From contig JACOSX010000130.1 in NCBI GenBank assembly GCA_016178625.1, forward strand, positions 1 through 35,244: a stretch of 35,244 nt of DNA, written 5' to 3'. This document shows, one piece after another, positions 2,711-16,814 of the stretch. A program made the position numbers and the translations under genes. The notes below the pieces were generated by a model. That model saw only the letters and a list, made by a program, of their open reading frames with translations. It did not search any database and was not told the DNA's origin. Numbering within the stretch: position 1 is the stretch's first letter; the number at the start of each line of letters is the position of its first letter. The stretch comes from Ignavibacteria bacterium (GTDB taxonomy: Bacteria > Bacteroidota > Ignavibacteria > UBA10030 > SZUA-254).

Positions 2711-4159
2711 TTAATAACGAGGCAACGTTCTATCGACGCGGTCTGCCCATGCATCGATGCCGCCGATAAGGTTCTTCACTTTCTTGAAGCCGCTCTTTTT
2801 CAGGAAATCGACAGCCTTTGCACTTCGACCGCCGAGTTTGCAATGAACAATAATTTCCTTCGACGAGTCTAACGTATGTATCTTTTCAGGGAGCTCACCG
2901 AGCGGGATCAAGTGTCCACCGATATTGACAATTTCGTATTCGTGCGGCTCACGAACGTCGAGAATATACAGGTCATCTCCGTGATCAAGACGAGTTTTCA
3001 ATTGCTCTACAGAAATCTGGTCTTGCTGATGGTCATTTCCATTTCCCGGTGATCGCTCGATACCACAGAACTGTTCATAGTCGATTAACTCACGAATTGT
3101 TGGCACGTTGCCACAGATAGGGCAATCGGGATTTTTCTTGAGCCTGAGCTCACGGAAGGTAAACTTCAGAGCATCAAATAAAACCAATCTGCCGATGAGA
3201 AGATCTCCTTGACCGACAATGAGTTTGATTGTCTCGAGTGCCTGAAGAGAACCAACAATTCCGGGAAGGACACCCAGAACACCACCCTCTGCACAGCTCG
3301 GAACAAGTCCCGGCGGTGGCGGCGCTGGATAGAGACAACGATAGCAAGGACCACGCTGTGCATCAAAAACAGCCACCTGTCCATCGAAGCGGAAGATGGA
3401 GCCATAGACATTCGGCTTACCGAGAAGAACGCAAGCATCGTTCACAAGGTATCGTGTAGGGAAATTGTCTGTCCCATCGATAACGACGTCGTACCCCGCA
3501 AAAAGTTCAAGTGCGTTGTCTGAACTCAACCGAACCTCGTATGTCTCAACACTAACATGAGGGTTGATACCGTGAATCGTTTCACGGGCAGATTCGAGCT
3601 TTGACCTCCCGACATCTTCTGTTGAATGCAGAACCTGACGCTGTAAGTTGGTTACATCAACTACATCAAAATCCACAATGCCGATCTTCCCGACGCCCGC
3701 TGCCGCGAGATACAATGCAAGCGGTGAGCCGAGTCCACCAGCTCCGACCAAGAGTACCTTTGCTGCTTTCAACCGCTTCTGCCCCTGCATGCCAACTTCA
3801 GGTATAATCAAATGCCTGCTGTAGCGCAGGATTTCTTCATTTGATAATTGAATTTCCCGTTCGACGGTGAGCGTATTGACTTCGGTCCCCCCGGCAATCG
3901 AGGGAATAATGCTGATGACATCTGATTCCTTCAGAGGAGTTTTTTCTTTTTGGAGATACCGAATGTCTTCATCATTGACATAAACGTTTACATAGCTTCG
4001 TAAGCTACCGTTCTCATTATATAAATGACGTTGAAGTTGTGTGAATCTCGATGTAAGATTTCGCAGCACTTCTTCAACTGTTGTTCCTGCAATCTCAATC
4101 GAATCATGTTTTTCAGCGTACGCCCGAAGAGGTGTGGGAATAAGTATTTTTGTTGGCAT
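2711..4159 (-). CDS. CysO-MoeZ fusion: sulfur carrier + E1-like adenylyltransferase + rhodanese
   Basis: A 482-residue three-domain protein. Residues 1-91 are a ubiquitin-fold sulfur carrier closest to mycobacterial CysO (IPTPLR, VNVYVNDED and IIPSIAGG are CysO-like) and end in Gly90-Gly91. Residues 107-350 are a ThiF/MoeB domain with nucleotide loop GAGGLG (139-144), TNLQRQ, catalytic-type Cys289 in PSCAEGG, and zinc cysteines 272/275 and 346/349. Residues 380-482 are a rhodanese domain with active-site loop CKLGGRS (Cys440). In Mycobacterium, MoeZ adenylates CysO and converts it to a thiocarboxylate that CysM uses to make cysteine. Here carrier and activator are one chain, so the Gly-Gly is internal. 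ATG at 4159 has an AGGAGA Shine-Dalgarno. It is the last gene of the sulfur operon. A molybdopterin or thiamine role is less likely given the neighbours. Confidence 0.9.
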   Translation of the reverse strand: MPTKILIPTPLRAYAEKHDSIEIAGTTVEEVLRNLTSRFTQLQRHLYNENGSLRSYVNVYVNDEDIRYLQKEKTPLKESDVISIIPSIAGGTEVNTLTVEREIQLSNEEILRYSRHLIIPEVGMQGQKRLKAAKVLLVGAGGLGSPLALYLAAAGVGKIGIVDFDVVDVTNLQRQVLHSTEDVGRSKLESARETIHGINPHVSVETYEVRLSSDNALELFAGYDVVIDGTDNFPTRYLVNDACVLLGKPNVYGSIFRFDGQVAVFDAQRGPCYRCLYPAPPPPGLVPSCAEGGVLGVLPGIVGSLQALETIKLIVGQGDLLIGRLVLFDALKFTFRELRLKKNPDCPICGNVPTIRELIDYEQFCGIERSPGNGNDHQQDQISVEQLKTRLDHGDDLYILDVREPHEYEIVNIGGHLIPLGELPEKIHTLDSSKEIIVHCKLGGRSAKAVDFLKKSGFKKVKNLIGGIDAWADRVDRTLPRY

Positions 4160-4204: not shown

Positions 4205-4648
4205 TTATTGATTAACCTGGGTAAGTGTATCTGCAAGAGACAAGATTCGTTCATCGAAATGAGATCTGTCCTCACTCAACAACCATGCGGTGATATTCTT
4301 TGCCTGTCCTTGCATGATAGATACAATAACGTAGGTGAACCAGGGCAACGCATGTTCGGTATCAAAGGCAGACGGAATTGCCGGGTGATCCGGATGTGAA
4401 TGATAAAATCCTAAGAGTTCGAGTCTCCTTTCAGCGGCAATCCTCTCGGAATCTCTATATTGTGCCGGCGTAACGAGAAACCTACGCTGACGGTTAACAT
4501 CAATGCTATTATCAATTTCAACAATTGACAGAACTGTATGGATTCCATCCCGATCTGCCCCCAACATGATACCGCAGCATTCTTCCGGGTACGTCCGTTC
4601 ACCATGACGTTCAATCTGACGGATGATATCGTGTGGTATGCTCACCAT
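4205..4648 (-). CDS. mec: JAMM/MPN+ metallopeptidase (Mec-like, M67 family)
   Basis: A 147-residue zinc peptidase of the JAMM family. The motif is complete: Glu in PEECCGIMLG, then HSHPDHPAIPSAFD, which fits H-x-H-x7-S-x2-D. Mycobacterial Mec releases cysteine from the CysO-cysteine adduct, and related JAMM enzymes (QbsD) trim residues after the Gly-Gly of a carrier protein. Either job would fit here, because the adjacent CysO domain is fused at its Gly-Gly to another domain. I chose ATG 4648, with AAGGA seven bases upstream and four bases after the cysM stop, over a longer frame reaching 4744 that would overlap cysM by about 90 bases. ATG 4663 is a second possibility. Confidence 0.88.
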   Translation of the reverse strand: MVSIPHDIIRQIERHGERTYPEECCGIMLGADRDGIHTVLSIVEIDNSIDVNRQRRFLVTPAQYRDSERIAAERRLELLGFYHSHPDHPAIPSAFDTEHALPWFTYVIVSIMQGQAKNITAWLLSEDRSHFDERILSLADTLTQVNQ

Positions 4649-4652
4649 GACA

Positions 4653-5639
4653 TCATCCTTCATTCCAAAAACGTTCGCTGCCATACCTCGCACCACTATC
4701 AGGAAAAATCGTGACGATGACTCCGGCCATGAGTTGCGATGCAAGCCTTATGCTCACCGCCATTGCAGCTCCGCTCGAGATACCAACGAATAGTCCTTCT
4801 TCTCGCGCCAATAGCTTCACCATTGCATACGCTTCCTCTGTCGAAACGATAAGATGTTCGTCAGCGAGCGTGGGATCATAGATGCCGGGAGTTATCGCCG
4901 TCGGGAGGTGCTTCAATCCCTCCAAGCCATGGAGTGGAGAATCCGGCTCAAACGACACACATGTGAGTGAAGGATTAAATTCCTTCAATCGTCGCGTGGT
5001 GCCGACAAACGTTCCTGTTGTCCCAAGCCCAGCGACAAAATGGGTGATGCGTTGCTTCGTCTGCGACCAAATTTCTGTCGCAGTGGTGTTGTAGTGAGCC
5101 TTCCAATTTGCCGGATTATTATACTGGTCGGGATGAAAGTACTGATCAGGGTCTGCAGCAACGATCTCTTTTACTCGCTGTTGCGCACCATCCGTCCCTG
5201 AGAGCGGATCGGTGAATAAGATTTCTGCGCCATAGGCGCGCAAAACATGTTTTCTTTCTTCACTCGCATTCGAGGGAAGCGCCAGGGTCACGTTGTAGCC
5301 AAGAGCGCTGCCGATCATCGCATAGGCGATTCCTGTGTTTCCACTCGTCGCGTCGATAATAGTCTTCTCCCTTGTCAAGATTCCTGAACGTTCAGCTTCG
5401 AGCAACATGTAAAGTGCTGCGCGGTCTTTGACTGATCCTCCTGGGTTGAACCACTCTGCTTTTGCATAGATTTCGACTGAATCATTCAGCGTACACAACC
5501 TGCGTATCCGAAGAAGTGGTGTGTTGCCAATATTACCCAGAATCGAGTGACGATCTTGAATTTGCCTTTCCAGATTGTCATCCTCAAAAACATCTATTGG
5601 CGTAGCATTTATGTTTCTCATACTTTGGCTCTGTGTCAT
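4653..5639 (-). CDS. cysM: CysM-like cysteine synthase (PLP)
   Basis: A fold-type II PLP enzyme of 328 residues. The Schiff-base lysine is Lys71 in NPGGSVKDR; the substrate loop is ATSGNTG (98-103 region); the phosphate-binding loop reads GLGTTGT, as in mycobacterial CysM rather than the GTGGT of typical CysK. A block HGLEGLKHL lies where Mtb CysM has its phosphoserine-selecting loop. The position between a JAMM peptidase and a CysO-MoeZ fusion argues that the sulfur donor is thiocarboxylated CysO. Whether the acceptor is O-acetylserine or O-phosphoserine cannot be settled from sequence. About 30 N-terminal residues precede the conserved core; the start at 5639 is not strongly supported by a ribosome site. 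Confidence 0.88.
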   Translation of the reverse strand: MTQSQSMRNINATPIDVFEDDNLERQIQDRHSILGNIGNTPLLRIRRLCTLNDSVEIYAKAEWFNPGGSVKDRAALYMLLEAERSGILTREKTIIDATSGNTGIAYAMIGSALGYNVTLALPSNASEERKHVLRAYGAEILFTDPLSGTDGAQQRVKEIVAADPDQYFHPDQYNNPANWKAHYNTTATEIWSQTKQRITHFVAGLGTTGTFVGTTRRLKEFNPSLTCVSFEPDSPLHGLEGLKHLPTAITPGIYDPTLADEHLIVSTEEAYAMVKLLAREEGLFVGISSGAAMAVSIRLASQLMAGVIVTIFPDSGARYGSERFWNEG

Positions 5640-5667: not shown

Positions 5668-5910
5668 CTACATTGAGCTCTGTTCTATCGTCTTCAGTTT
5701 CCGGCATTGTTTACACACACTTTTGTAATACGGATAGAAAGCATCCGGCCGGGTCACGCCACAATAACGACATTCATGAGGCATCTTATACCGTCGCTTG
5801 GTCACTTCAGCATTGCCGTGTCGTCTCCGTCTTGCGTAATGCTTCCAGCAAAGGCCACGTGCCACGCGAGGTTTTAAACATTCTCCTACACTGCAAACGA
5901 ACCGGCTCAT
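5668..5910 (-). CDS. Small two-zinc-finger protein, function unknown
   Basis: An 80-residue basic protein with seven cysteines. Residues 6-24 hold C-x4-C-x9-C-x2-H, and residues 47-69 hold C-x2-C-x15-C-x2-C, both plausible zinc sites; the stretch YARRRRHG (25-32) between them is strongly basic. This looks like the treble-clef/HNH-related fingers of small phage and housekeeping proteins, but I recognise no named family. Its ATG overlaps the cysG stop in an ATGA, and 28 bases separate it from cysM, so it is embedded in and translationally coupled within the sulfur operon. Nucleic-acid binding or a regulatory/chaperone role is conceivable; none is shown. Confidence 0.75.
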   Translation of the reverse strand: MSRFVCSVGECLKPRVARGLCWKHYARRRRHGNAEVTKRRYKMPHECRYCGVTRPDAFYPYYKSVCKQCRKLKTIEQSSM

Positions 5911-7313
5911 TGATATGTATCCTGTAATGCCGGTTGCGGAGATTGAGCAGTAATTGCTTGAGCGGCATGAGGCTCAACAAACCGCACCACATCACCAACG
6001 ATAATCAGTCCGGGAGAATTCATCGAATGCTTATGAACTTTTTCTCCGATATCCTCGAGCGTTCCAGTCAGAACGATTTCTTCAGGAAGAGTTCCGTCAA
6101 AGATAACCGCAGCGGGCTTCAGAGGTGACACACCATGTTGAATCAGTTGGTCAACAATGAAATGCAGCCTTTTCACGCCCATATAAATCACAATGCTGTC
6201 GATGCGGGAGATACTATTCCAATCGACATGTTGTTCATCTTTCGTTGGGTCCTCATGCCCCGTCAGGAACACAACACTTGAAGAATGTCGACGATGTGTC
6301 AGCGGTATCCCAAGTGAAGTCGGTATGCCGATTCCTGCAGTAATACCGGGAACGACTTCTACCTTGATCCCCACATTTTGTAATGCTTCAAGCTCTTCTC
6401 CGCCGCGACCAAAGATGAACGGATCTCCACCCTTGAGTCTGAGGACAAGCTTCCCCTCACGAGCTTTTAGGACAAGCAGCTCATTGATCTCTTCTTGCCG
6501 TTTGCAATGAGCACCTGCCCTCTTCCCGACAAATATCTTCTCAGCCGATTCTTTTACATACGATAGAAGCTCCGTATTGACAAGAGCATCATACATAATA
6601 ACATCTGCAGATTGAAGAATCTTTAGTCCTTTCACGGTCATCAACTCCGGGTCACCCGGACCAGCACCGATGATATACACCTTCCCTTTTTGTGGAAAAT
6701 CCTCATACGGTCTGGTCGCACCCTTTTGTGTGCGCCCGTGAAGTCGCTCCAGCTCAGTCTGAACCAATCGTCTGAATAATTCCTTTCGGCTCTGAACATC
6801 AGGGAACGCTTTGAGAACGTGCGGACGCACTCCGCCGATTGTCTCCAATAACTCCGGATATCCATCCGCAAACTCATCCCGAATTTTGTCGCGGATAATC
6901 TGCCCAAGGGTCGGGCTTTTCCCGTTTGTCGACACAGCGATCTTGAGATCACCCTTTTGGAAAACTGACGAGAGATAAAACGTGCACAACTGCGGCACGT
7001 CGACAATATTTACCGGAACATTCTTGCTTTGAGCGTCATTAAAAATCACCTGTTGGACAGTCTTATCATCAGTCGCACCAATCACCAAGAAAAAACCTCC
7101 TACATCGCCTGACTCATAAGCGCGGCGATGCACAATGATCTTATTCTTGCCTGCAAGCTCTTCCACTGCCGCAGAAATACTCGGGGCAATAACTGTTACC
7201 TCGGCTTTTGCGTCCAGTAATCCTCGGATCTTCTGTTCCGCAACCATTCCCCCACCAACCACTAACACGGGCTGATGTTCTATGTTCAGAAATATGGGGT
7301 ACAATGTGTTCAT
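5907..7313 (-). CDS. cysG: Siroheme synthase (precorrin-2 dehydrogenase/ferrochelatase + uroporphyrinogen-III methyltransferase)
   Basis: A 468-residue bifunctional enzyme that makes siroheme, the cofactor of the sulfite reductase in the same operon. The N-terminal half (1-~205) is Met8/CysG-N-like, with the NAD loop VVGGGMVAEQK near residue 19 and SSVFQKGDLKIAVSTNGKSP. The C-terminal half (~210-455) is a SUMT methyltransferase with VYIIGAGPGDPELMTVKG, LRLKGGDPFIFGRGGEE and VPGITAGIG. Length and order match enterobacterial CysG. It begins 43 bases after the sat stop, and the zinc-finger gene overlaps its stop. No Shine-Dalgarno is obvious at the ATG. Confidence 0.95.
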   Translation of the reverse strand: MNTLYPIFLNIEHQPVLVVGGGMVAEQKIRGLLDAKAEVTVIAPSISAAVEELAGKNKIIVHRRAYESGDVGGFFLVIGATDDKTVQQVIFNDAQSKNVPVNIVDVPQLCTFYLSSVFQKGDLKIAVSTNGKSPTLGQIIRDKIRDEFADGYPELLETIGGVRPHVLKAFPDVQSRKELFRRLVQTELERLHGRTQKGATRPYEDFPQKGKVYIIGAGPGDPELMTVKGLKILQSADVIMYDALVNTELLSYVKESAEKIFVGKRAGAHCKRQEEINELLVLKAREGKLVLRLKGGDPFIFGRGGEELEALQNVGIKVEVVPGITAGIGIPTSLGIPLTHRRHSSSVVFLTGHEDPTKDEQHVDWNSISRIDSIVIYMGVKRLHFIVDQLIQHGVSPLKPAAVIFDGTLPEEIVLTGTLEDIGEKVHKHSMNSPGLIIVGDVVRFVEPHAAQAITAQSPQPALQDTYQ

Positions 7314-7356: not shown

Positions 7357-9207
7357 CTATGTATACAATGCGACAGCAGCAGCAACTTTTTTCGCGGCAA
7401 CATAATGCCGCTGAAGGATCTTTATCACTTCAGGACGTGAGAACTCATTCGGCAGATCCAGTCCGTTCTGAAGACATTCTCGGACTTTCGTCCCACTCAG
7501 AATGACTCGTTCCTCAATATTGTGCGGGCATGTTTTCTCCGACGCCATCCCTTCACACTTTTTGCAATAGAATGTGTGATCAAATTTCAGCGGCGTGATG
7601 GCAAGCTCTTCCTTTGAGTATTCATCAAAGAGTTTCTGAGCATCGTAGGTGCCATAGTAGTTTCCGACTCCCGCGTGGTCACGACCGACTATGAAATGGG
7701 TGCATCCGTAATTCTGACGAATGATAGCGTGATGAATTGCTTCTTTCGGTCCTGCGTACCGCATGGCAGCGGGCATCACAGAGAGCAACACCCGATCCTG
7801 AGGAAAGTAGTTTTTCAAAAGGACATCATAGCAGTCCATACGAACATCGGCAGGGATATCGTCGCCTTTTGTTTCACCGACAAGGGGATGAAGCAACAGA
7901 CCGTCCACAAGTTCGAGAGCCACTTTCTGAATATACTCGTGAGCGCGGTGAATAGGATTTCGTGTTTGGAACGCGACAATATTGTTCCATCCATGCTGTT
8001 TGAAATACTCTCTCGTTTGCAGAGGAGTTAAATAGTGCTCACGGAATCGTCGAGACTGCTCTATCCGTATGACATCGATTGTTCCGGCAAGGGCAACATT
8101 TCCTTCTTCAAAAAGATTTTTGACGCCAGGATGATTTCGGCCGGTCGTCTGCCATACTCGCTGTGCAAGCTCTTCCTTATCGACGCGGAATATTTCGTCC
8201 AGATGAAGGAGGGCAAGGTTCTTCCCGTCTCTGTCCCGCATAATCACATCATCGGTAACTCTCAGTTGTTCTTCCTGGTCGTTCTCTACCAGGAGTAGAA
8301 TGGGAATTGTCCACGCGAGACCATTCGTCAATCTCCCCTGTGTGATAATGCTTTTGTATTCCTTTTCTCCGACGAAGCCCACCAGTGGAGAGTACGCACC
8401 GATTGCGAGCAATTCAACATCAGACCATTGACGAGGCGTGAGAACGACTGAAGGATACTTTTCTATCCGGTCGATAATCTCATCCCGTTTGGTGTCAGAA
8501 AGAAAACGATTGACAAGAACTCCCCCGTGCGGCACAATGGACGTTCCAAATTGATCTGTTGCGGCGGTACGGTTGTCACCAAGTTCCTTGACACTATGAG
8601 CAGCTCGAAGCTTGCCTACTTTATGCAACTGTGTTATAACCTTCTCCTCTTCCTGTTCCGGGAGCGTTGTTTCAACTACAGGAATCAATCCGAGCAACTC
8701 GAGAGAACGCAACACCTTATTTGTGCTTATCTCCAAAGACTCCTTGTCTGTCTCAACAATAACCTCAGGCACCAGAGGCGATTCATACGGATCAGAGATA
8801 CCGGTGAAATTCTTGAGTTCACCCGTAATTGCTTTTTTGTACAAGCCTTTGACGTCACGTTGGACTAATGTTTCTATCGGCGCCGTAACGAACACCTCGA
8901 CGAAGTTCTGGATATGAGAACGGACACGATCTCGAATTTCACGATAAGGAGATATTGCAGCTACAATCGCAATGGCGCCATTACGAGCAAGCAATTCGCA
9001 CACAAATCCTATGCGCAGAATGTTCGTGTCCCGATCCTCCTTACTAAACCCCAACCCTTTACTGAGATGAGTACGAACGACATCGCCATCTAACAATTCA
9101 ACGTTGTTATGTCCCCTCTCCTTGAGTTTCCGGATAAGTTCTTGAGAGATCGTTGATTTGCCCACACCGGAAAGCCCGGTAAACCAGATAGTAAATCCTT
9201 GTTGCAT
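7357..9207 (-). CDS. Bifunctional APS kinase / ATP sulfurylase
   Basis: A 616-residue fusion with the kinase first. Residues 1-~185 are CysC, with P-loop GLSGVGKST (11-19), LLDGDVVR and the RDVKGLYKKA substrate region. Residues ~215-600 are ATP sulfurylase, with QTRNPIHRAHE, HPLVGETKGDD and GRDHAGVGN; C-terminal cysteines (CKKCEG, TCPHN) suggest a zinc site as in several prokaryotic Sat proteins. It activates sulfate to APS and can phosphorylate APS to PAPS. The ATG at 9207 has a good GAGGAGAAG ribosome site. Because the operon's reductase has the cysteine pattern of an APS-type enzyme, the kinase domain may serve sulfation or regulation rather than the main reduction route. Confidence 0.95.
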   Translation of the reverse strand: MQQGFTIWFTGLSGVGKSTISQELIRKLKERGHNNVELLDGDVVRTHLSKGLGFSKEDRDTNILRIGFVCELLARNGAIAIVAAISPYREIRDRVRSHIQNFVEVFVTAPIETLVQRDVKGLYKKAITGELKNFTGISDPYESPLVPEVIVETDKESLEISTNKVLRSLELLGLIPVVETTLPEQEEEKVITQLHKVGKLRAAHSVKELGDNRTAATDQFGTSIVPHGGVLVNRFLSDTKRDEIIDRIEKYPSVVLTPRQWSDVELLAIGAYSPLVGFVGEKEYKSIITQGRLTNGLAWTIPILLLVENDQEEQLRVTDDVIMRDRDGKNLALLHLDEIFRVDKEELAQRVWQTTGRNHPGVKNLFEEGNVALAGTIDVIRIEQSRRFREHYLTPLQTREYFKQHGWNNIVAFQTRNPIHRAHEYIQKVALELVDGLLLHPLVGETKGDDIPADVRMDCYDVLLKNYFPQDRVLLSVMPAAMRYAGPKEAIHHAIIRQNYGCTHFIVGRDHAGVGNYYGTYDAQKLFDEYSKEELAITPLKFDHTFYCKKCEGMASEKTCPHNIEERVILSGTKVRECLQNGLDLPNEFSRPEVIKILQRHYVAAKKVAAAVALYT

Positions 9208-9287: not shown

Positions 9288-10334
9288 TCACGATTTCGAA
9301 AAAGCATGGAACGCGGTGATACCAATGTACACTTCAGATCCTTCTATGAAACCACTTGTCAACGATACTCCTTTCGGAACATGAGCAATGACCTGCTTAT
9401 TTCCTCCGATGTGCAAGTTCAGTTCAGTCATCGGGCCCCTGAATCTTGTTTTCATAATTTTGGCTTTTACATCCACATGTGGGTACTCCGGCAATGAGCT
9501 GACGTAGACATCATGGGGGCGGAAATAGATTCGGATCTTTTCTCCGAGCGGGTAACCATTCACAGGAAAACGGAAGGGACCCCATGGCACCAAGTGCGGT
9601 TCGGTTACCTCGGCTTCGATAAAGTTGTTTTCTCCGACAAACTCCGCCACAAACGGCGTGGCTGGTCGGTCAAATATTTCCAGCGGAGTCCCGTTTTGTT
9701 CGATTCGTCCACTATTCATCACAAGAATCTTATTGGCGATCTCCAGGGCTTCATGTTGATCATGGGTGACAAAGAGGGTCGTGACTTGACTGTGCTCGTG
9801 GAGTTGCTGAATCCATTCCCGTAACTCCTCTCGCACTTTCGTATCCAGGGCACCGAATGGTTCGTCAAGAAGAAGAACTCTCGGGCTCGGAGCGAGTGCC
9901 CTCGCCACAGCAACACGTTGACGCTGACCGCCGGAGAGCTGAAAAGGGTACCGTTTCTCCAAGCCCTTTAATTGCACAAGTCCAAGAAGTTCAGAGACGC
10001 GGCATTCGATTTCTTGCTTTGGCAGCTTTCTGACTTTCAGTCCAAAGGCGATATTCTCATACACTGTCATATGCTTGAAGAGGGCGTAGTGTTGAAAGAC
10101 AAATCCTACGTTTCGATCACGCGGCGAGACCTGCGTCGTTTCTTTGCCAGTTAAGTGAATCTCACCACCATCAGGAATTTCCAACCCTGAGATAATTCGG
10201 AGGAGCGTACTTTTCCCGCAACCGCTTGGCCCTAAGAGTGCAACCAGTTCACCCGTTTCTACCCGGAAGCTAACATCGTGGACCGCCGTGAATCCGTTGA
10301 ACCGCTTCGTCAGGTGCTGGACTTCAATACTCAT
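9288..10334 (-). CDS. cysA: Sulfate/thiosulfate ABC transporter ATP-binding subunit
   Basis: The ATPase of the sulfate importer, acting on the cytoplasmic face with CysT and CysW. In 348 residues it shows Walker [10 protein letters not shown], signature [15 protein letters not shown], Walker [13 protein letters not shown] and the switch histidine in FVTHDQ, then a C-terminal regulatory domain. I chose ATG 10334, which overlaps the cysW stop as ATGA and has GAGGA upstream, over a frame extending to 10427 that runs into cysW. The following gene starts 80 bases downstream, the longest gap among the transport genes apart from that before sbp. Confidence 0.95.
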
Positions 10335-11287
10335 AACGGTTCCTCGTTCATCTCCGTTAACTTCGTTGGCAAAGGGAGGGGCGTCCATGAGGAACTTGAT
10401 GCAATCAACTTCTCCTTCAGTTTCCACTCGACAACTTTCTTAACAATCAGCGTCGCCAGAGCCAGGAATGTCAGCAGGGAAGCTACAGCAAACGCAGCAT
10501 TCATGTGGTATTCATTGTAGAGGATCTCCACATGGAGCGGAATCGTGTTTGTCAAGCCGCGAATATGTCCCGACACAACCGAGACGGCGCCAAACTCTCC
10601 CATCGCCCTTGCGTTGCAAAGAATGATGCCGAATATCAATCCCCATTTTATATTAGGAAGCGTTACACGGAAAAATGTTTTCCAGCCGCCGGCGCCAAGC
10701 ACCAATGCCGCCTGTTCTTCTTCCGTACCCTGCGTTTGCATGATGGGAATTAGCTCGCGAGCGACGAACGGGAACGTCACAAACATCGTCGTGAGAATGA
10801 TACCGGGGATAGCGAAAACAATTTTCATTCCATGCTCATCGAGCCATTCTCCAACCCACCCTTGCAAACCGAAGAGGAGAACAAAAATCATCCCGGAAAC
10901 AACTGGTGACACCGTAAAGGGAAGGTCGATGAGTGTGGTCAAGATACTCTTGCCAGGAAAATCGAATTTAGCGATCAGCCACGAAGCAACTAATCCAAAC
11001 ACTACATTGAACGGCACGGCGATAGCTGCTGCTAAGAGCGTGAGTCTGATCGCGGCGAGCGCGTCAGGTTCACTGATGGCGGCGAAAAATGCAGCCAGGC
11101 CATTCTCAAATGCTTTGGTAAAGACGAGAAGGAGCGGTGCAACGAGAAAGATACCAACAAAAATAAGCGTGGCGCCAATGATGATCCTCCGAACCGCAAA
11201 TGGCTCCGAGAGGTGGTGAGAGTTCCGGGCATGCATAGGTGCTTCCTGCACACTCAATCTCGCCGATATGGCTTGTAGATTTTTCAT
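10331..11287 (-). CDS. cysW: Sulfate ABC transporter permease CysW
   Basis: One of the two inner-membrane channel subunits of the sulfate importer. The 318-residue protein has about six hydrophobic segments, a 30-residue N-terminal extension, and the permease coupling motif [22 protein letters not shown] (the EAA loop) that contacts Cys[16 protein letters not shown] is typical of CysW. Its ATG overlaps the cysT stop by four bases and its stop overlaps the cysA start, so the three genes are tightly coupled. A 224-residue open frame on the opposite strand is a shadow of this gene. Confidence 0.94.
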
Positions 11288-12138
11288 ACGGACCTGTTCA
11301 TGCGCGCTTGCAAGAGATTAATAGTCAACAAGAGCGCAAATGACACAACCAACATTGTCATGGCGATTGCTGTTGCTCCCGCATAGTCGTATTGTTCGAG
11401 CTTCGTGACAATAAGAAGCGGTGAAATTTCTGTGTGCATCGGAATATTCCCTGAAATGAAAACTACAGAACCGTATTCGCCAAGTGCCCGCGCAAACGCA
11501 AGGGCAAAGCCTGTGAGTGCGGCAGGTCGGATAGCAGGGAGGATAACGCGGGCGAGGATATACAAGCGGTTGGCGCCCAAGCTTGCAGCCGCCTCTTCAA
11601 CATCAGGATCAAAATCCTCAAGGACAGGCTGCACAGTCCGCACAACGAATGGAAGACCAATGAAGGTCAAAGCAATCACAACCCCAACCGGCGTAAATGC
11701 TGCTTTGATTCCAAGACCTTGAAGGTACCTACCAAACCATCCGTTATCCGCGCAGAGAGCTGTCAGTGTGATTCCAGCGACTGCTGTCGGCAGCGCAAAG
11801 GGGAGATCGACAAGTGCGTCGATAATTCTTTTTCCCGGAAAATGGTAGCGTACGAGCGACCATGCAACAAGGAGACCGAATATAAGATTGATGAACGCTG
11901 CTGCCAACGAAGCACCGAAGCTCAAACGAAAAGAGGCAAGAACGCGTGGATCGGTAATCGCTCCTGCAAATTTATCCCATGTCATACTGAAACTCTTGAA
12001 GAACAGCGTTGAGATCGGGATTAGGACGATAAGATTTACGTACAGCATCGTGAAGCCAAGCGATAAGCCAAATCCCGGAAGAACTCGCCGACCCTTTTTT
12101 CTATTCGATATTCTCTTATTAGATGTATCTGCTTGCAC
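11284..12138 (-). CDS. cysT: Sulfate ABC transporter permease CysT (CysU)
   Basis: The partner permease of CysW. The 284-residue protein shows about six membrane segments, the EAA loop EEAAASLGANRLYILARVILP, and the CysT-type region FARALGEYGSVVFISGN. It starts 13 bases after the sulfate-binding protein gene ends and overlaps cysW at its 3' end. The N-terminus begins with a short basic cytoplasmic stretch (SNKRISNRKKGRR), which sets topology by the positive-inside rule. Confidence 0.94.
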   Translation of the reverse strand: MQADTSNKRISNRKKGRRVLPGFGLSLGFTMLYVNLIVLIPISTLFFKSFSMTWDKFAGAITDPRVLASFRLSFGASLAAAFINLIFGLLVAWSLVRYHFPGKRIIDALVDLPFALPTAVAGITLTALCADNGWFGRYLQGLGIKAAFTPVGVVIALTFIGLPFVVRTVQPVLEDFDPDVEEAAASLGANRLYILARVILPAIRPAALTGFALAFARALGEYGSVVFISGNIPMHTEISPLLIVTKLEQYDYAGATAIAMTMLVVSFALLLTINLLQARMNRSV

Positions 12139-12151
12139 GGTTTTCTCAGCG

Positions 12152-13186
12152 TTAGTTGCTACTCATTTGAAGATAAATTTGATCGAACGTCCCACCATCG
12201 GCAAAGTGTGTTTGTTGCGCAATCTGCCAACCGCCGAAGACTTCGCTAATCGTAAAGAGCTTTAGAGCTGGAAATTGTTTTTCGTAGTGTGCAGCGACTG
12301 ATTGCAGACGGGGCCGGTAGTAATGTTGCGCGACAATTTCCTGCCCTTGCTCGGAATAGAGATACTGGAGATACGCCTGAGCGACGGCACGAGTGTTATG
12401 CTTGTTTACAACCTTGTCGACGAGCGCAACGGGGAGCTCGGCAAGAATGCTGACGGACGGTACAACAATCTCAAATTTTCCTTCACCTAATTCCTTGATA
12501 GCAAGCAATGCTTCATTCTCCCATGCAACAAGCACATCGCCAATACCACGTTCGACAAACGTTGTGGTGGCGCCGCGGGCACCGGCATCAAGAATAGGAA
12601 CGTTCTTATAGAGACGCTGGACAAAATCTCTCGCCTTCGCGTCATCGCCATTAAATTTCTTGAGCGCGTATCCCCATGCCGCAAGATAGTTCCACCGCGC
12701 TCCCCCCGAAGTCTTTGGATTGGGAGTGACAACAGAAACGTTCGGTTTGGTGAGATCATCCCAATCCTTCACCTCTTTCGGATTTCCTTTTCGCACCAGG
12801 AAAATGATAGTGGAAGTGTATGGTGAACTATTATCGGGCAACCGTGATTGCCAGTCCTTTGGAACAAGCTTCCCTTTCTCATGCAGCGCGTCAATATCGT
12901 ACGCAAGCCCAAGTGTCACAACGTCGGCCTCCAAGCCGTCGATGATCGCTCGCGCTTGCTTTCCTGAGCCACCGTGAGATTGATTGATCGTCACCGTTTG
13001 TCCGGTCTTCGTCTTCCAATACTCTGCGAACTTTTTATCGAATTCCTGATAGAGCTCCCGCGTTGGATCGTACGAAACGTTCAGAAGCGTAATCTCTTGC
13101 TGCGCATTGATCGGAATGGATACCAATCCAGCCAAAATAATTAATAGAAATAACGTTTTTATAATGTTGCTGAATAATGTTCGCAT
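12152..13186 (-). CDS. sbp: Periplasmic sulfate-binding protein
   Basis: The receptor that captures sulfate and hands it to CysT/CysW. The 344 residues start with a Sec signal peptide (basic [10 protein letters not shown], then a hydrophobic core, cleavage likely after INA near residue 28). Family motifs follow: [22 protein letters not shown] and [21 protein letters not shown]. No lipobox cysteine is seen, so it should be soluble in the periplasm, in line with an outer-membrane-bearing cell. It lies between the shortened porin gene and the permease genes, 13 bases before cysT. Confidence 0.95.
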
Positions 13187-13231: not shown

Positions 13232-13618
13232 TTAGTATGATATTTGATAACGAGTGAAAATGACTCTTTCATCCTGTCGGTTGCCTCCCACCGATCCCCC
13301 TTGAAAGCTTGTCTGCTCATAATCTATCACGAACTTGAAGTTGCTGTTCAAATACCAATCGATGCCGATTCCCCAAGCACTTGCTTTACTTACAGTAATA
13401 TTAGGATCGGCAAACACTGGAAAAGTGTTATCTTCTAATTTGGTTTCCAACAACCACGATTGGTCGGGACGCTCAGCATCCTCTTGCGCAAGGGCGGAAG
13501 ACAACAATGTGCAATATATACCCAACAGGGCAGCTTTAGTAACAATTGATCTGAGATTTCTCATAAAATTTCGTTTCATTCTCCGTTCGACATGTGTTGA
13601 GAGTTTTATTGTGAACAT
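13232..13618 (-). CDS. Shortened Porin_O_P-type outer-membrane porin (signal peptide + C-terminal strands only)
   Basis: 128 codons encode an N-terminal signal peptide (hydrophobic core AALLGIYCTLLSSALA) followed directly by what looks like the last ~75 residues of an OprO/OprP-type porin: FPVFADPN, AWGIGIDWYLNSN, FVIDYEQTSFQGG, and the terminal FTRYQISY ending in an aromatic residue as barrel proteins do. Full-length relatives are around 400 residues, so roughly 250-300 central residues are absent while the reading frame stays open. It sits between cysH (4 bases upstream) and sbp, the right place for an outer-membrane sulfate channel. It may be a deletion remnant, an assembly collapse or a real mini-protein. 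The start may be Met14 (13579) rather than 13618. Confidence 0.65.
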   Translation of the reverse strand: MFTIKLSTHVERRMKRNFMRNLRSIVTKAALLGIYCTLLSSALAQEDAERPDQSWLLETKLEDNTFPVFADPNITVSKASAWGIGIDWYLNSNFKFVIDYEQTSFQGGSVGGNRQDERVIFTRYQISY

Positions 13619-13622
13619 TTAT

Positions 13623-14375
13623 TCAGCGATGCTGGATCGGGATTGATTCAGTCGGCGTTGTGTCGGGTTTATGAAGCCCACACTCCGTTTTTTGAAATCC
13701 ACGCCACCTTCCGGCACGATCACTCTCACCATCCCCAACCGGTGTTGTGCAATGGATACAACCGATGCTTGTGTATCCCTTATCGTACAGTGAGTTATAA
13801 GGAACATTGTGCTCTGCGATATACTTCCACACGTCTTTCTTTGTCCACGTTACAAGCGGATTAATTTTTATCACGTTGAATTTCTTGTCCCACTCAACGA
13901 TGCCAGCCGTTGCCCGGAACGGAGATTGCTCACGTCGGATGGCGGTAACCCAGGCAGAGCGTTGTTTCAGTGCGTCCTGTAAGGGTTTCACCTTTCTGAT
14001 ATTGCAACAGTGATCAGGATCTCGCTCCCATAAGCTCGAACCATGAAGGTGCGCTTGCTGCTCAAGAGTTACAGTAGAGTTGTAACGGGTAATGCGTATT
14101 CCATATTTTTCTTCGAGCGTATTCCGCAATTGATGCGTTTCGGGAAATAAGACTTCGGTATCGAGAAAGAAAATCGGGATGTTCTTATTCACCGCTACCA
14201 GCATATCGATGAGCGCAACTCCTTCCGCACCAAATCCGGTTGCCATTACTGCTTGACCGATGGGAAAGGTTCTGTCCATCCACCGAAGCACTTCAATCGG
14301 ATGTTTATCCTCGAACTGATTGCTGATAACCTGGAATTGTTCTTCTGTATATGTCATGAATGATCGTGCTGTCAC
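13623..14375 (-). CDS. cysH: Assimilatory APS reductase (4Fe-4S type)
   Basis: Reduces adenylylsulfate to sulfite with thioredoxin or a similar donor. In 250 residues it has the PAPS-reductase nucleotide loop around FGAEGVALIDM, the paired cysteines in DHCCNIRKV and the CxxC in IGCIHCTTP, which together bind a 4Fe-4S cluster and mark APS-type rather than enterobacterial PAPS-type CysH. ECGLH near the C-terminus carries the catalytic cysteine. The start is GTG 14375 or the internal ATG 14357; neither has a clear ribosome site. It follows sir after 99 bases without obvious signals. Confidence 0.93.
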   Translation of the reverse strand: MTARSFMTYTEEQFQVISNQFEDKHPIEVLRWMDRTFPIGQAVMATGFGAEGVALIDMLVAVNKNIPIFFLDTEVLFPETHQLRNTLEEKYGIRITRYNSTVTLEQQAHLHGSSLWERDPDHCCNIRKVKPLQDALKQRSAWVTAIRREQSPFRATAGIVEWDKKFNVIKINPLVTWTKKDVWKYIAEHNVPYNSLYDKGYTSIGCIHCTTPVGDGESDRAGRWRGFQKTECGLHKPDTTPTESIPIQHR

Positions 14376-14474: not shown

Positions 14475-16241
14475 TTACACCGCGCACTCACCTACACCAG
14501 TTTTGGCTATGAATGCTGACTTCTCGCCGAGATCGATAAAGAGGTCATCGTTGGCTTGTTCAGACCGGATGTCGACAAGATCTTTGATTTCTTCACGGAA
14601 CGAACGGACACCAACCCGCTCGACATATTGCCAGAAGTTCTCGTCCTCTGTTCGCTGCGTCAAAAATGTTCTCAGAATACGTGAGACAGCTTCAACGATA
14701 TATCGGGCAGGGATTTTCCCGATTGTGTCGGCAAATGATTGCCCACCAGAATTCAATCCTCCGCCAATCATCATAATGTAGGATGGAATCTGGCGGCCAT
14801 TGACATTCTTCGCAGCGCCGTAAAAACCAATGGAAGCGATGTGGTGCTGACCGCACGAATTTGGGCAACCGCTGATTTTTATTCTTAAGTCCTTTAGCAC
14901 TTCAATCCAATCCGGAGTACGCAGGAACAGTTGTGTCAGCTCTTTTCCCAATGCTCGTGAATGTGTGATACCAAGGTTACACGTATCTGCCCCGGGGCAG
15001 GACGTGACGTTTGCAATGGTCTGCGCGCCGGCTTGATGAAGCCCAACACGTTTTAATTCTTGATACAACGCAACGAGATCTGATGACCTAATCCAACGAA
15101 GGACGATATCCTGCTGCGTTGTTGTTCGAACGTTACCATTCGAGAAGCGATTAGCAAGATCACTCAGCGAGAATAGTTGATCGGTCGTTAAATCACCAAT
15201 CGTGGGATTCACGTAGACAACATTATACTCATCTTGTTTTTGAGAAATAACATTAAAATCAGCCCATCGCTGAAACTCTATACTCGCCTTGGTGTAGCCG
15301 GGAAAACCGTCTTGTAACGGAAGATAACCAGTCTCCGATTCTTCCTCGGTTGTAAATACTCTTCCTAACTGGAGAATACGTAACCGTTCTTCATTCACCC
15401 TATGTCGAAATCCATCTAAACCAAGTTTCCACAGGACAAATTTCATCCGGGCTTTGTTGCGATTCTCCCTGTTCCCAAGGGTGTTGAAAATGGCCAGAAT
15501 AGCTTCTGCTGTTGGGATCAACTGTTCGACCGGCATAAACTCTTCAAGGACATCGGCAACCCGCGGTTGTGAACCCAGACCACCACCTACGAAGACCCTG
15601 AAACCTTTTCGTACAATCCCGTCCTCTTGTTTGAGCGATGCAACAAACCCGATGTCGTGAATCCATGGAACAATGGCATCGCTTTCGTCCGAGCTTCCCG
15701 AGAAGGAAATCTTAAACTTTCTTGGAAGTTGCTGGCTCAACGAATTGCGAAGCAAGTGTTTTGCAAGAAGTCGAGCGTACGGGGTTACGTCAAACAGTTC
15801 GTCCTTGGCGACACCCGCAAGAGGTGAGCCGACAATATTCCGAACAGAATTACCGCAAGCCTCACGCGTAGTAAGCCCAACGTCTGCTAACGACTCCATA
15901 ACAGCCGGAATGTTTTGAAGCTGCACCCAATGTAATTGGATATCCTGCCGCGTCGTTACGTGGGCGATACCATCGGCAAACGTGCGTGCAATTTCACCAA
16001 GACGGATTAATTGTTTCGATGTCAGCAGCCCATAAGGCACTTTTACGCGAACCATATTGAACCCCTGTTGGTCGGCGCGCTGTCCATAAATGCCGCGGTG
16101 CAGCCGGTACCGACGGAATTCCTCATCCGACAGCTCACCGTTTCTTAGACGCTCGATCGCATCTCGCATCCCTTGGATATCCTCAACAATTCTTACTGGA
16201 TCATCGATGGTGTTCAATTCTTCTTTTACATACAGGCTCAC
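14475..16241 (-). CDS. sir: Siroheme-dependent sulfite reductase (NirA/Sir family)
   Basis: A 588-residue monomeric-type sulfite reductase that takes sulfite to sulfide with electrons probably from ferredoxin. Two related halves are visible, each with a ferrite-like segment (HVTTRQDIQLHW and RTTTQQDIVLRW). The cluster and siroheme ligands are TSCPGADTCN (C-x5-C) and SGCPNSCGQH (C-x3-C). The close relative is ferredoxin-nitrite reductase, but no nitrate genes are near and all neighbours handle sulfur. It starts at GTG 16241, preceded by GAGGTAACC as ribosome site. It is the first structural gene after the leader-terminator region, so read-through there would control the whole operon. Confidence 0.92.
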   Translation of the reverse strand: MSLYVKEELNTIDDPVRIVEDIQGMRDAIERLRNGELSDEEFRRYRLHRGIYGQRADQQGFNMVRVKVPYGLLTSKQLIRLGEIARTFADGIAHVTTRQDIQLHWVQLQNIPAVMESLADVGLTTREACGNSVRNIVGSPLAGVAKDELFDVTPYARLLAKHLLRNSLSQQLPRKFKISFSGSSDESDAIVPWIHDIGFVASLKQEDGIVRKGFRVFVGGGLGSQPRVADVLEEFMPVEQLIPTAEAILAIFNTLGNRENRNKARMKFVLWKLGLDGFRHRVNEERLRILQLGRVFTTEEESETGYLPLQDGFPGYTKASIEFQRWADFNVISQKQDEYNVVYVNPTIGDLTTDQLFSLSDLANRFSNGNVRTTTQQDIVLRWIRSSDLVALYQELKRVGLHQAGAQTIANVTSCPGADTCNLGITHSRALGKELTQLFLRTPDWIEVLKDLRIKISGCPNSCGQHHIASIGFYGAAKNVNGRQIPSYIMMIGGGLNSGGQSFADTIGKIPARYIVEAVSRILRTFLTQRTEDENFWQYVERVGVRSFREEIKDLVDIRSEQANDDLFIDLGEKSAFIAKTGVGECAV

Positions 16242-16261: not shown

Positions 16262-16305
16262 ATAAAATAAAAAGCCCTTCATCGGTTCTCCGACGAAGGG
16301 CTTTT
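16262..16305 (-). terminator. Intrinsic terminator in the sulfur-operon leader (attenuator)
   Basis: On the minus strand GCCCTTCGTCGG, loop AGAA, then CCGATGAAGGGC form a 12-bp stem with one G-U pair, extendable by A-T pairs, followed by CTTTTTATTTTATT. It lies between the Cys-rich leader peptide (stop at 16335) and sir (start 16241), so it would end transcription before the first structural gene unless prevented. A terminator in this position, inside the transcript of its own operon, is the hallmark of attenuation. Confidence 0.9.
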
Positions 16306-16334
16306 GAATGTCAAATCTTAAATAGTGATTTACC

Positions 16335-16418
16335 TCATGGGCTTCTGCGTTCGAGAGAACAGAGTCGTGCCATAGCACATGCACAACAACACGCGCAACT
16401 CGCAGCAGCTCTGTTCAT
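16335..16418 (-). CDS. Cysteine-rich leader peptide of the sulfur operon
   Basis: A 27-codon ORF with six cysteines, five of them within residues 8-14 (SCACCCACA at 7-15), far above chance for Cys codons; four of those five are TGT. It ends at TGA 16335, 30 bases before the terminator stem. Regions that can pair by hand: GAACAGAG (16409-16416) with CTCTGTTC (16357-16364); then GTTCTC plus CGAA (16350-16360) with GAGAAC and TTCG of the terminator loop and 5' arm (16285-16297). A ribosome stalled at the Cys run would free the second segment to block the terminator; one reaching the stop would cover it. No Shine-Dalgarno is seen (GGCTTCCAATTA precedes ATG). The alternative is chance, which the promoter, terminator and operon content make unlikely. 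Confidence 0.87.
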   Translation of the reverse strand: MNRAAASCACCCACAMARLCSLERRSP

Positions 16419-16451
16419 TAATTGGAAGCCAAAGGTTTTCATACGTAGTAC

Positions 16452-16480
16452 AAGATATGATTAAATATTACTTTTGTCAA
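16452..16480 (-). promoter_or_regulatory. Promoter of the sulfate assimilation/cysteine operon
   Basis: Minus strand: a perfect TTGACA -35 (16475-16480), 17-base spacer, and TATCTT -10 (16452-16457). The predicted start near 16445 leaves a leader of about 27 bases before the leader-peptide ATG and about 200 bases before sir. The AT-rich spacer and exact spacing support a housekeeping-sigma promoter. Another TTGACA-like hexamer lies further upstream near 16504-16509 but has no good -10 partner. Confidence 0.75.
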
Positions 16481-16814
16481 GACATAATTCGAAAAGGATT
16501 CTAAATTGTCAAAATAGACGGTTTCGCAGGCGTTATATCAACGCATTATCTGAAGGGCATCACGCAGGTGCATAGCCAATTCCGGGTACGTAAACATCTT
16601 AGCACAACGTTTGATCTTAAATCAGTCATTCAACGTTGAAGCTTATCGGTGGGCACTGTAACATGTCACGTTACATCGGCATGTTGCCGTTCGTGTAAAT
16701 CGGCTCAGTCTAAGAAACACTGTAGGGAATTGCAATCTTGCTTTTCTCAGGATTTTTCCTGTCATTGAGGTCAGAATATTTTCTGTCTACCTTTGAGGGC
16801 TCCATTATCGTCGC
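16481..16814. promoter_or_regulatory. Divergent intergenic region with two palindromic candidate operators
   Basis: No gene is visible in these 334 bases between the leftward sulfur operon and the rightward vWA gene. Two strong symmetric sites occur: TTCAACGTTGAA, a perfect 12-base palindrome at 16629-16640, and TGTAACATGTCACGTTACA at 16657-16675, where eight of nine pairs match around a central T, shaped like a CRP/FNR-family operator. A smaller hairpin GCGTT-ATATC-AACGC lies near 16532. The sites are 140-190 bases from either gene start, so they could serve either direction. I found no convincing -35/-10 pair for the plus-strand gene. Confidence 0.45.

Follow-up and report, generated by a model that had tools for sequence, protein, structure and literature searches.

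The window analysed here, a stretch of 35,244 nucleotides from an Ignavibacteria bacterium, carries a sulfate-to-cysteine gene cluster on its minus strand. The first gene, sir (14475–16241), encodes a protein of the sulfite/nitrite reductase family with NIR_SIR and NIR_SIR_ferr domains, whose best NCBIfam match, the NirA family, is below the cut-off. The genes after sir share its strand and either overlap or are separated by small gaps: cysH for phosphoadenylyl-sulfate reductase (13623–14375; above the NCBIfam cut-off), a 128-amino-acid ORF that is possibly porin-like (13232–13618; a weak Porin_O_P match, E 0.023, below the cut-off), a sulfate ABC transporter (9288–13186) with its binding protein at 12152–13186, two permeases and the ATPase at 9288–10427, an APS kinase–ATP sulfurylase fusion (7357–9207), assigned like the transporter by domain and family matches, and cysG for siroheme synthase (5907–7313; above the NCBIfam cut-off). 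These are followed by a cysM-type cysteine synthase (4653–5639; 361 bits to TIGR01138, whose cut-off is 394), a JAMM/Mec-type protease with a Prok-JAB match (4205–4744) and, from family matches, a fused sulfur carrier (MoaD/CysO-like)–MoeZ/ThiF–rhodanese protein (2711–4159). Between cysG and cysM, the sequence also contains an ORF for a Cys-rich, putative zinc-binding protein of 80 amino acids (5668–5910), which matches no Pfam family above the cut-off and is 51–62% conserved in eight of nine relatives' loci. In relatives, much of the order sir, cysG, cysM, mec, moeZ is preserved, and we infer that the whole sulfate-to-cysteine cluster is one transcript.

Upstream of sir, the minus strand carries, in this order, a box TTGACAATTTAGAAT, a promoter, a Cys-run ORF and an intrinsic terminator. 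The promoter of the original prediction, with the hexamers TTGACA and TATCTT at a spacing of 17, is indeed present at 16480–16452 on the minus strand, and it recurs, with TATCTT or TAACTT as the −10 hexamer, in most of the sir, cysM and cysE relatives. The 27-codon ORF described together with it also exists, with Cys at residues 8, 10, 11, 12 and 14, but it corresponds to the 3′ portion of a longer ORF with 35 codons (16335–16442, minus strand; MKTFGFQLMNRAAASCACCCACAMARLCSLERRSP), to which its ATG at 16418 is internal. The ATG of the longer ORF is 9 nt past the −10 hexamer. Relatives show similar spacing: where a promoter could be recognised, in 21 leaders, the AUG, located from the sequence, lies 7–13 nt past this hexamer with a mode of 9. 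Because this spacing recurs, 16442 is the better candidate, and the leader ORF probably starts there rather than at 16418. Since the AUG sits so close behind the −10 hexamer, within a few bases of the predicted 5′ end, the leader mRNA is probably leaderless.

Cys is encoded by six of the 35 codons, and five of these are in the seven-codon run CACCCAC (codons 16–22; 16377–16397, minus strand), which is kept in relatives and is the proposed site of ribosome stalling. A frame with five Cys in seven codons occurs once in the window, compared with 0.03 times per dinucleotide shuffle; Cys makes up 1.1% of the proteins of this cluster, and the probability of five in seven is about 4e-9.

The box (16498–16512, minus strand), about 60 nt upstream of the predicted start, is a candidate binding site of a predicted sulfur activator. 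The pattern TTG[AT]CAATTTAGAA is found upstream of the leader in 7/7 sir loci first compared, and the exact 15-mer occurs seven times in the genomes of ten relatives, six times at these leader promoters, while a reversed-pattern control has no occurrence. The box is kept at the relatives' sir promoters and at one cysH promoter, and is almost absent elsewhere in those genomes. A second copy in the bacterium's own genome (contig C90) precedes an unrelated gene, and one match in genome G113 adjoins no sulfur gene.

The intrinsic terminator (16262–16305, minus strand) is formed by a hairpin of segments 3 and 4 at 16305–16270, followed by a T-rich tail. It is the best terminator-like site within 19 kb and is kept in all aligned leaders. 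It lies where a 12-bp terminator with a T-run had been placed, but its stem has 16 pairs, counting four A-U pairs, with a loop of 4. In the MFE structure, segment 1 (16409–16436, minus strand) pairs through its ACCUU, GGCUUC and GAACAGAG strands with segment 2 (16340–16364, minus strand), which is located inside the end of the leader ORF and reads TTTCGCGAAGG at the homologous position in most relatives. In the folds, segment 2 is the partner of either segment 1 or the terminator 5′ arm, and segment 3 (16286–16305, minus strand), consisting of this arm and the loop, provides the core of the antiterminator pairing. The leader RNA, folded from close to its predicted start as far as the T tail, has an MFE of −69.5 kcal/mol versus −43.9 kcal/mol for shuffles (z = −6, 0/200), and the 1:2 pairing proposed earlier (16409–16416 with 16357–16364) is part of this structure far below the shuffles. 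No Rfam family was found in the window at gathering score, sub-threshold matches being ignored.

In 7/7 leaders folded, masking a ribosome footprint to the Cys run allows segment 2 to pair with the terminator 5′ arm while segment 4 has yet to be transcribed, so that the predicted 2:3 pairing does form in the stalled-ribosome fold; a footprint masked to the stop codon abolishes it, again in 7/7 leaders folded. Over 19 leaders, the antiterminator core helix is 93% paired, more than in any shifted register. In three leaders, U-A replaces C-G as the last pair of the helix, and the leader of genome G013 retains the pairing through strands of another sequence, TTCTGGTGAGG and CCTTCACCAGA. The covarying stems anticipated in relatives were found to the extent that this helix is kept paired, but compensation on both sides is limited to one pair among the 19 leaders. 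The significance of pairings was measured by duplex energies against shuffles; total pairing of the terminator arm was discarded as an insensitive metric, because shuffled leaders likewise pair the GC-rich arm. By duplex energies, the core 2:3 duplex of the window is not more stable than shuffles (p 0.80), and the window antiterminator relies on the loop side and has bulges. The 1:2 duplex of the window beats shuffled segment 1 (p 0.048). Of the 19 leaders, roughly half have a 1:2 pairing better than shuffles and the rest do not, segment 1 sequences vary by locus, and combined pairing p-values overstate significance because the leader sequences are related. At equilibrium, the terminator outweighs the antiterminator in the window fold even with a stalled ribosome, and the switch would therefore have to be kinetic.

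A scan of genome contigs yielded six sir orthologs with 63–75% identity, deposited as Ignavibacteriales or ‘Bacteroidetes’ MAGs. The Cys-run ORF, a pairing-capable segment 2, the terminator and the upstream box are found in 6/6 of them; comparison with relatives had been put forward as a check on the original prediction, which came through it. The third bases of the Cys codons vary between T and C across relatives, in-frame length changes occur too, and the near-identical leaders of G166 and G189 differ by one in-frame Cys codon. Because third bases vary and a Cys codon is gained or lost in frame, it is the reading frame, not the nucleotide run, that is kept. In the seven sir leaders, the window included, 25–31 nt separate the leader stop codon from the terminator that follows it.

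Covariance models were built first from seven leaders and next from nineteen, and a locus scoring over 75 bits was taken as strong. Among 391 genomes of the class, 18 contain strong loci, 21 in all, and in a spread of 395 genomes of the phylum the strong matches are confined to the same class. All 21 precede sulfur amino-acid genes, the first genes being sir, cysM-mec-moeZ, cysE-cysK, DUF2061 followed by cysH-cysD, rhodanese and metY. Cys codons, frame, stop-to-terminator distance and antiterminator core are retained across the family, and Cys accounts for 16% of the leader codons, versus 1.1% in the cluster proteins. Genome G205 has three such leaders, two before sir and one before cysE, and genome G029 has three model matches in one sulfur locus, one of which has few Cys codons. 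With model R1, no convincing match was obtained at 19 scanned loci of distant sir genes (~28–45% identity) from the order or other phyla. Most weak matches of models R1 and R2 (roughly <40 bits, including those outside the class) are bare terminators or ordinary gene ends, and weaker leaders were accepted only once the ORF had been read. A Cys leader before an Omp28-like protein (L053) and a locus before an EamA transporter (L114) were left out of support.

Since metal binding is within the capacity of Cys-rich peptides and the ORF is equipped with a promoter and a terminator of its own, the leader might simply encode a functional small metal- or redox-binding protein, with the terminator merely ending that gene. 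However, the peptide is poorly conserved outside the Cys run, its end follows the RNA pairing, the codon type shifts to Met before metY, and the position of the strong loci, always upstream of sulfur amino-acid genes, also speaks against such a protein, which we consider very improbable.

As far as the translated leaders tell, leader codons follow the downstream pathway. Among the weaker matches read by eye, runs of CCCCC, CCC or CCCC stand before cysK or cysM, mixed Cys/Met before cysH and metY, and Met runs before metY. Met content is 15% in metY leaders versus 6% in leaders of Cys genes (p 0.0005) and Cys content is lower in the former (p 0.02), p-values that serve as a guide only because the leaders are related and were found with a Cys model. 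Because metY leaders are richer in Met codons, codon identity appears to be what is read. The same observations bear on a nascent-peptide arrest sensor of the TnaC or SecM kind, in which the CACCC peptide itself would stall the ribosome on a small-molecule cue and act through the same terminator. CACCC is constant among the sir leaders, as such a sensor would have it, but the motif varies elsewhere (ACLCCCQ, ACCCCRIC, CACPCQKVCC, PCPCCCPC, NCCCCCKTC) and Met or Trp versions exist, so that reading of codons rather than of a peptide motif is expected and the chance of an arrest peptide is slight.

Several related arrangements were seen besides. In L055, a Trp/Tyr-rich leader (..SYWAWFWYTY..) and a terminator precede a protein start that is TrpE-like judging by its first residues alone; L051, L056 and L057 resemble L055 on the opposite strand, the translation being read in L055. 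Two Met-run leader/terminator units are placed in tandem before metY-ask-metX in L047 and L048. In L127 (genome G320), a Cys/Met-rich leader (CRMMQMCMPVCCC) and a terminator lie upstream of a protein starting with a CarboxypepD_reg domain, possibly a TonB-type receptor, with a tRNA gene between the leader and the protein. Three regions of G000 matching metY are without the leader; one holds a PALP-type gene as its longest ORF, and one of the three has a candidate SAM-riboswitch-like leader. Furthermore, in L059, L106, L108, L116 and L129, a Cys/Met-rich leader and terminator are followed by a SAM-I riboswitch in the same orientation, before metY. This arrangement would be a tandem of tRNA-charging and SAM control; if true, it would integrate tRNA charging with the SAM level, suggesting that two sensors can be stacked on one transcript. 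The leader-and-terminator architecture is also found with Met or Trp codons in other parts of the class and phylum, which suggests that classical attenuation is in general use for gene control there.

These results make it very likely that the element in the window is a trp/his-type ribosome-mediated transcription attenuator reading cysteine through Cys-tRNA, as originally proposed; the conserved anatomy before six sir orthologs and before the cysM, cysE, cysH, rhodanese and metY loci supports it. Because the arrangement recurs before relatives' cysteine genes, the element very likely switches the genes on only when cysteine is short. The transcript would begin no more than a few bases from the leader AUG, with a ribosome translating the leader behind RNA polymerase. 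With scarce Cys-tRNA, the ribosome would stall on CACCCAC and keep segment 1 from pairing, leaving segment 2 to pair with that half of the terminator 5′ arm which is nearer the loop. This 2:3 pairing would cover the loop side where the terminator nucleates, so that the terminator comes too late and polymerase enters sir and the genes behind it. With ample cysteine, the ribosome would reach the stop codon and cover segment 2, the terminator would form, and transcription would stop after ~180 nt. Without a ribosome, the 1:2 pairing would likewise leave the terminator free. Few studies address cysteine regulation in these lineages, and the element offers a directly testable cysteine switch for the sulfate assimilation cluster. 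On a wider scale, the chances seem slightly better than even that Cys- and Met-coded leaders across Bacteroidota and Ignavibacteriota, of which several look leaderless, make up an undescribed attenuation regulon for sulfur amino acids, with sir, cysH, cysE/K/M, sulfate transport and metY under its control. Tandem leaders and combinations of a leader with a SAM riboswitch would be part of it.

Attenuators of the trp/his type in Proteobacteria and Actinobacteria have a leader peptide with codons for the regulated amino acid, mutually exclusive 1:2, 2:3 and 3:4 hairpins and an intrinsic terminator. The window element is similar in its leader codon run, exclusive pairings and terminator before biosynthetic genes, and differs in the Cys codons, the sulfate assimilation genes, the Ignavibacteriota/Bacteroidota host and the AUG near the predicted 5′ end. 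The SAM-I (S-box) riboswitch (RF00162), which binds SAM directly, is comparable to the element in that it acts on the transcription of sulfur amino-acid genes in this phylum. In five loci it lies directly behind Cys/Met leaders before metY, but it is absent from the window element. A comparative survey by Lopatovskaya and colleagues from 2010 may contain related predictions. Our literature search found no description of leader-peptide control of cysteine synthesis in Ignavibacteriota or Bacteroidota, only general mentions such as hints of leader-peptide attenuation in flavobacteria and Bacteroides (PMC9723704, PMC7366714).

Cys-run leaders before cys operons have been predicted in Mycobacterium and others, without terminators (Seliverstov 2005, PMC1262725), and leaderless poly-Cys ORFs of mycobacteria are reported as Cys-responsive attenuators (Canestrari 2020, as cited in PMC9094748 and PMC9031893); the Cys-sensing ORFs that the original prediction mentioned for mycobacteria are described to this extent (PMC1262725; Canestrari 2020 via PMC9094748). 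The window resembles them in having an apparently leaderless Cys-run leader ORF before cys genes, with cysteine as the presumed signal, and no sequence relation between the leaders is claimed. These ORFs are, as far as the citing papers convey (PMC9031893, PMC9094748, citing Canestrari 2020), the closest experimentally studied analogue. The leaderless look of the window leader would fit a mechanism like the one proposed for mycobacteria, in which the Cys uORF exerts translation-coupled or Rho-type control and the hairpin is of minor importance. We give this mechanism little credence: the aligned leaders have a strong conserved intrinsic terminator and a matching antiterminator, whereas the mycobacterial leaders have no conserved terminator hairpin (PMC1262725).

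For the attenuator reading, another comparison is uORFC-8-2 before cysS in Rhodobacterales, a Cys uORF with a predicted intrinsic terminator and proposed ribosome-mediated attenuation (PMC8632094). The window likewise has a Cys-codon uORF with an intrinsic terminator; uORFC-8-2, however, has two tandem Cys codons at positions 14–15 before a cysteinyl-tRNA synthetase gene in Alphaproteobacteria, while the window has CACCCAC at codons 16–22 and sir downstream. Because Cys-codon attenuators are described for mycobacterial cys operons and Rhodobacterales cysS, the novelty suggested for a full cys operon is smaller than implied, but the lineage and the gene set are new. The window element would accordingly be a Cys-codon attenuator of a known kind, placed here in a new lineage and before a new gene set, with an unusual predicted leaderless start.
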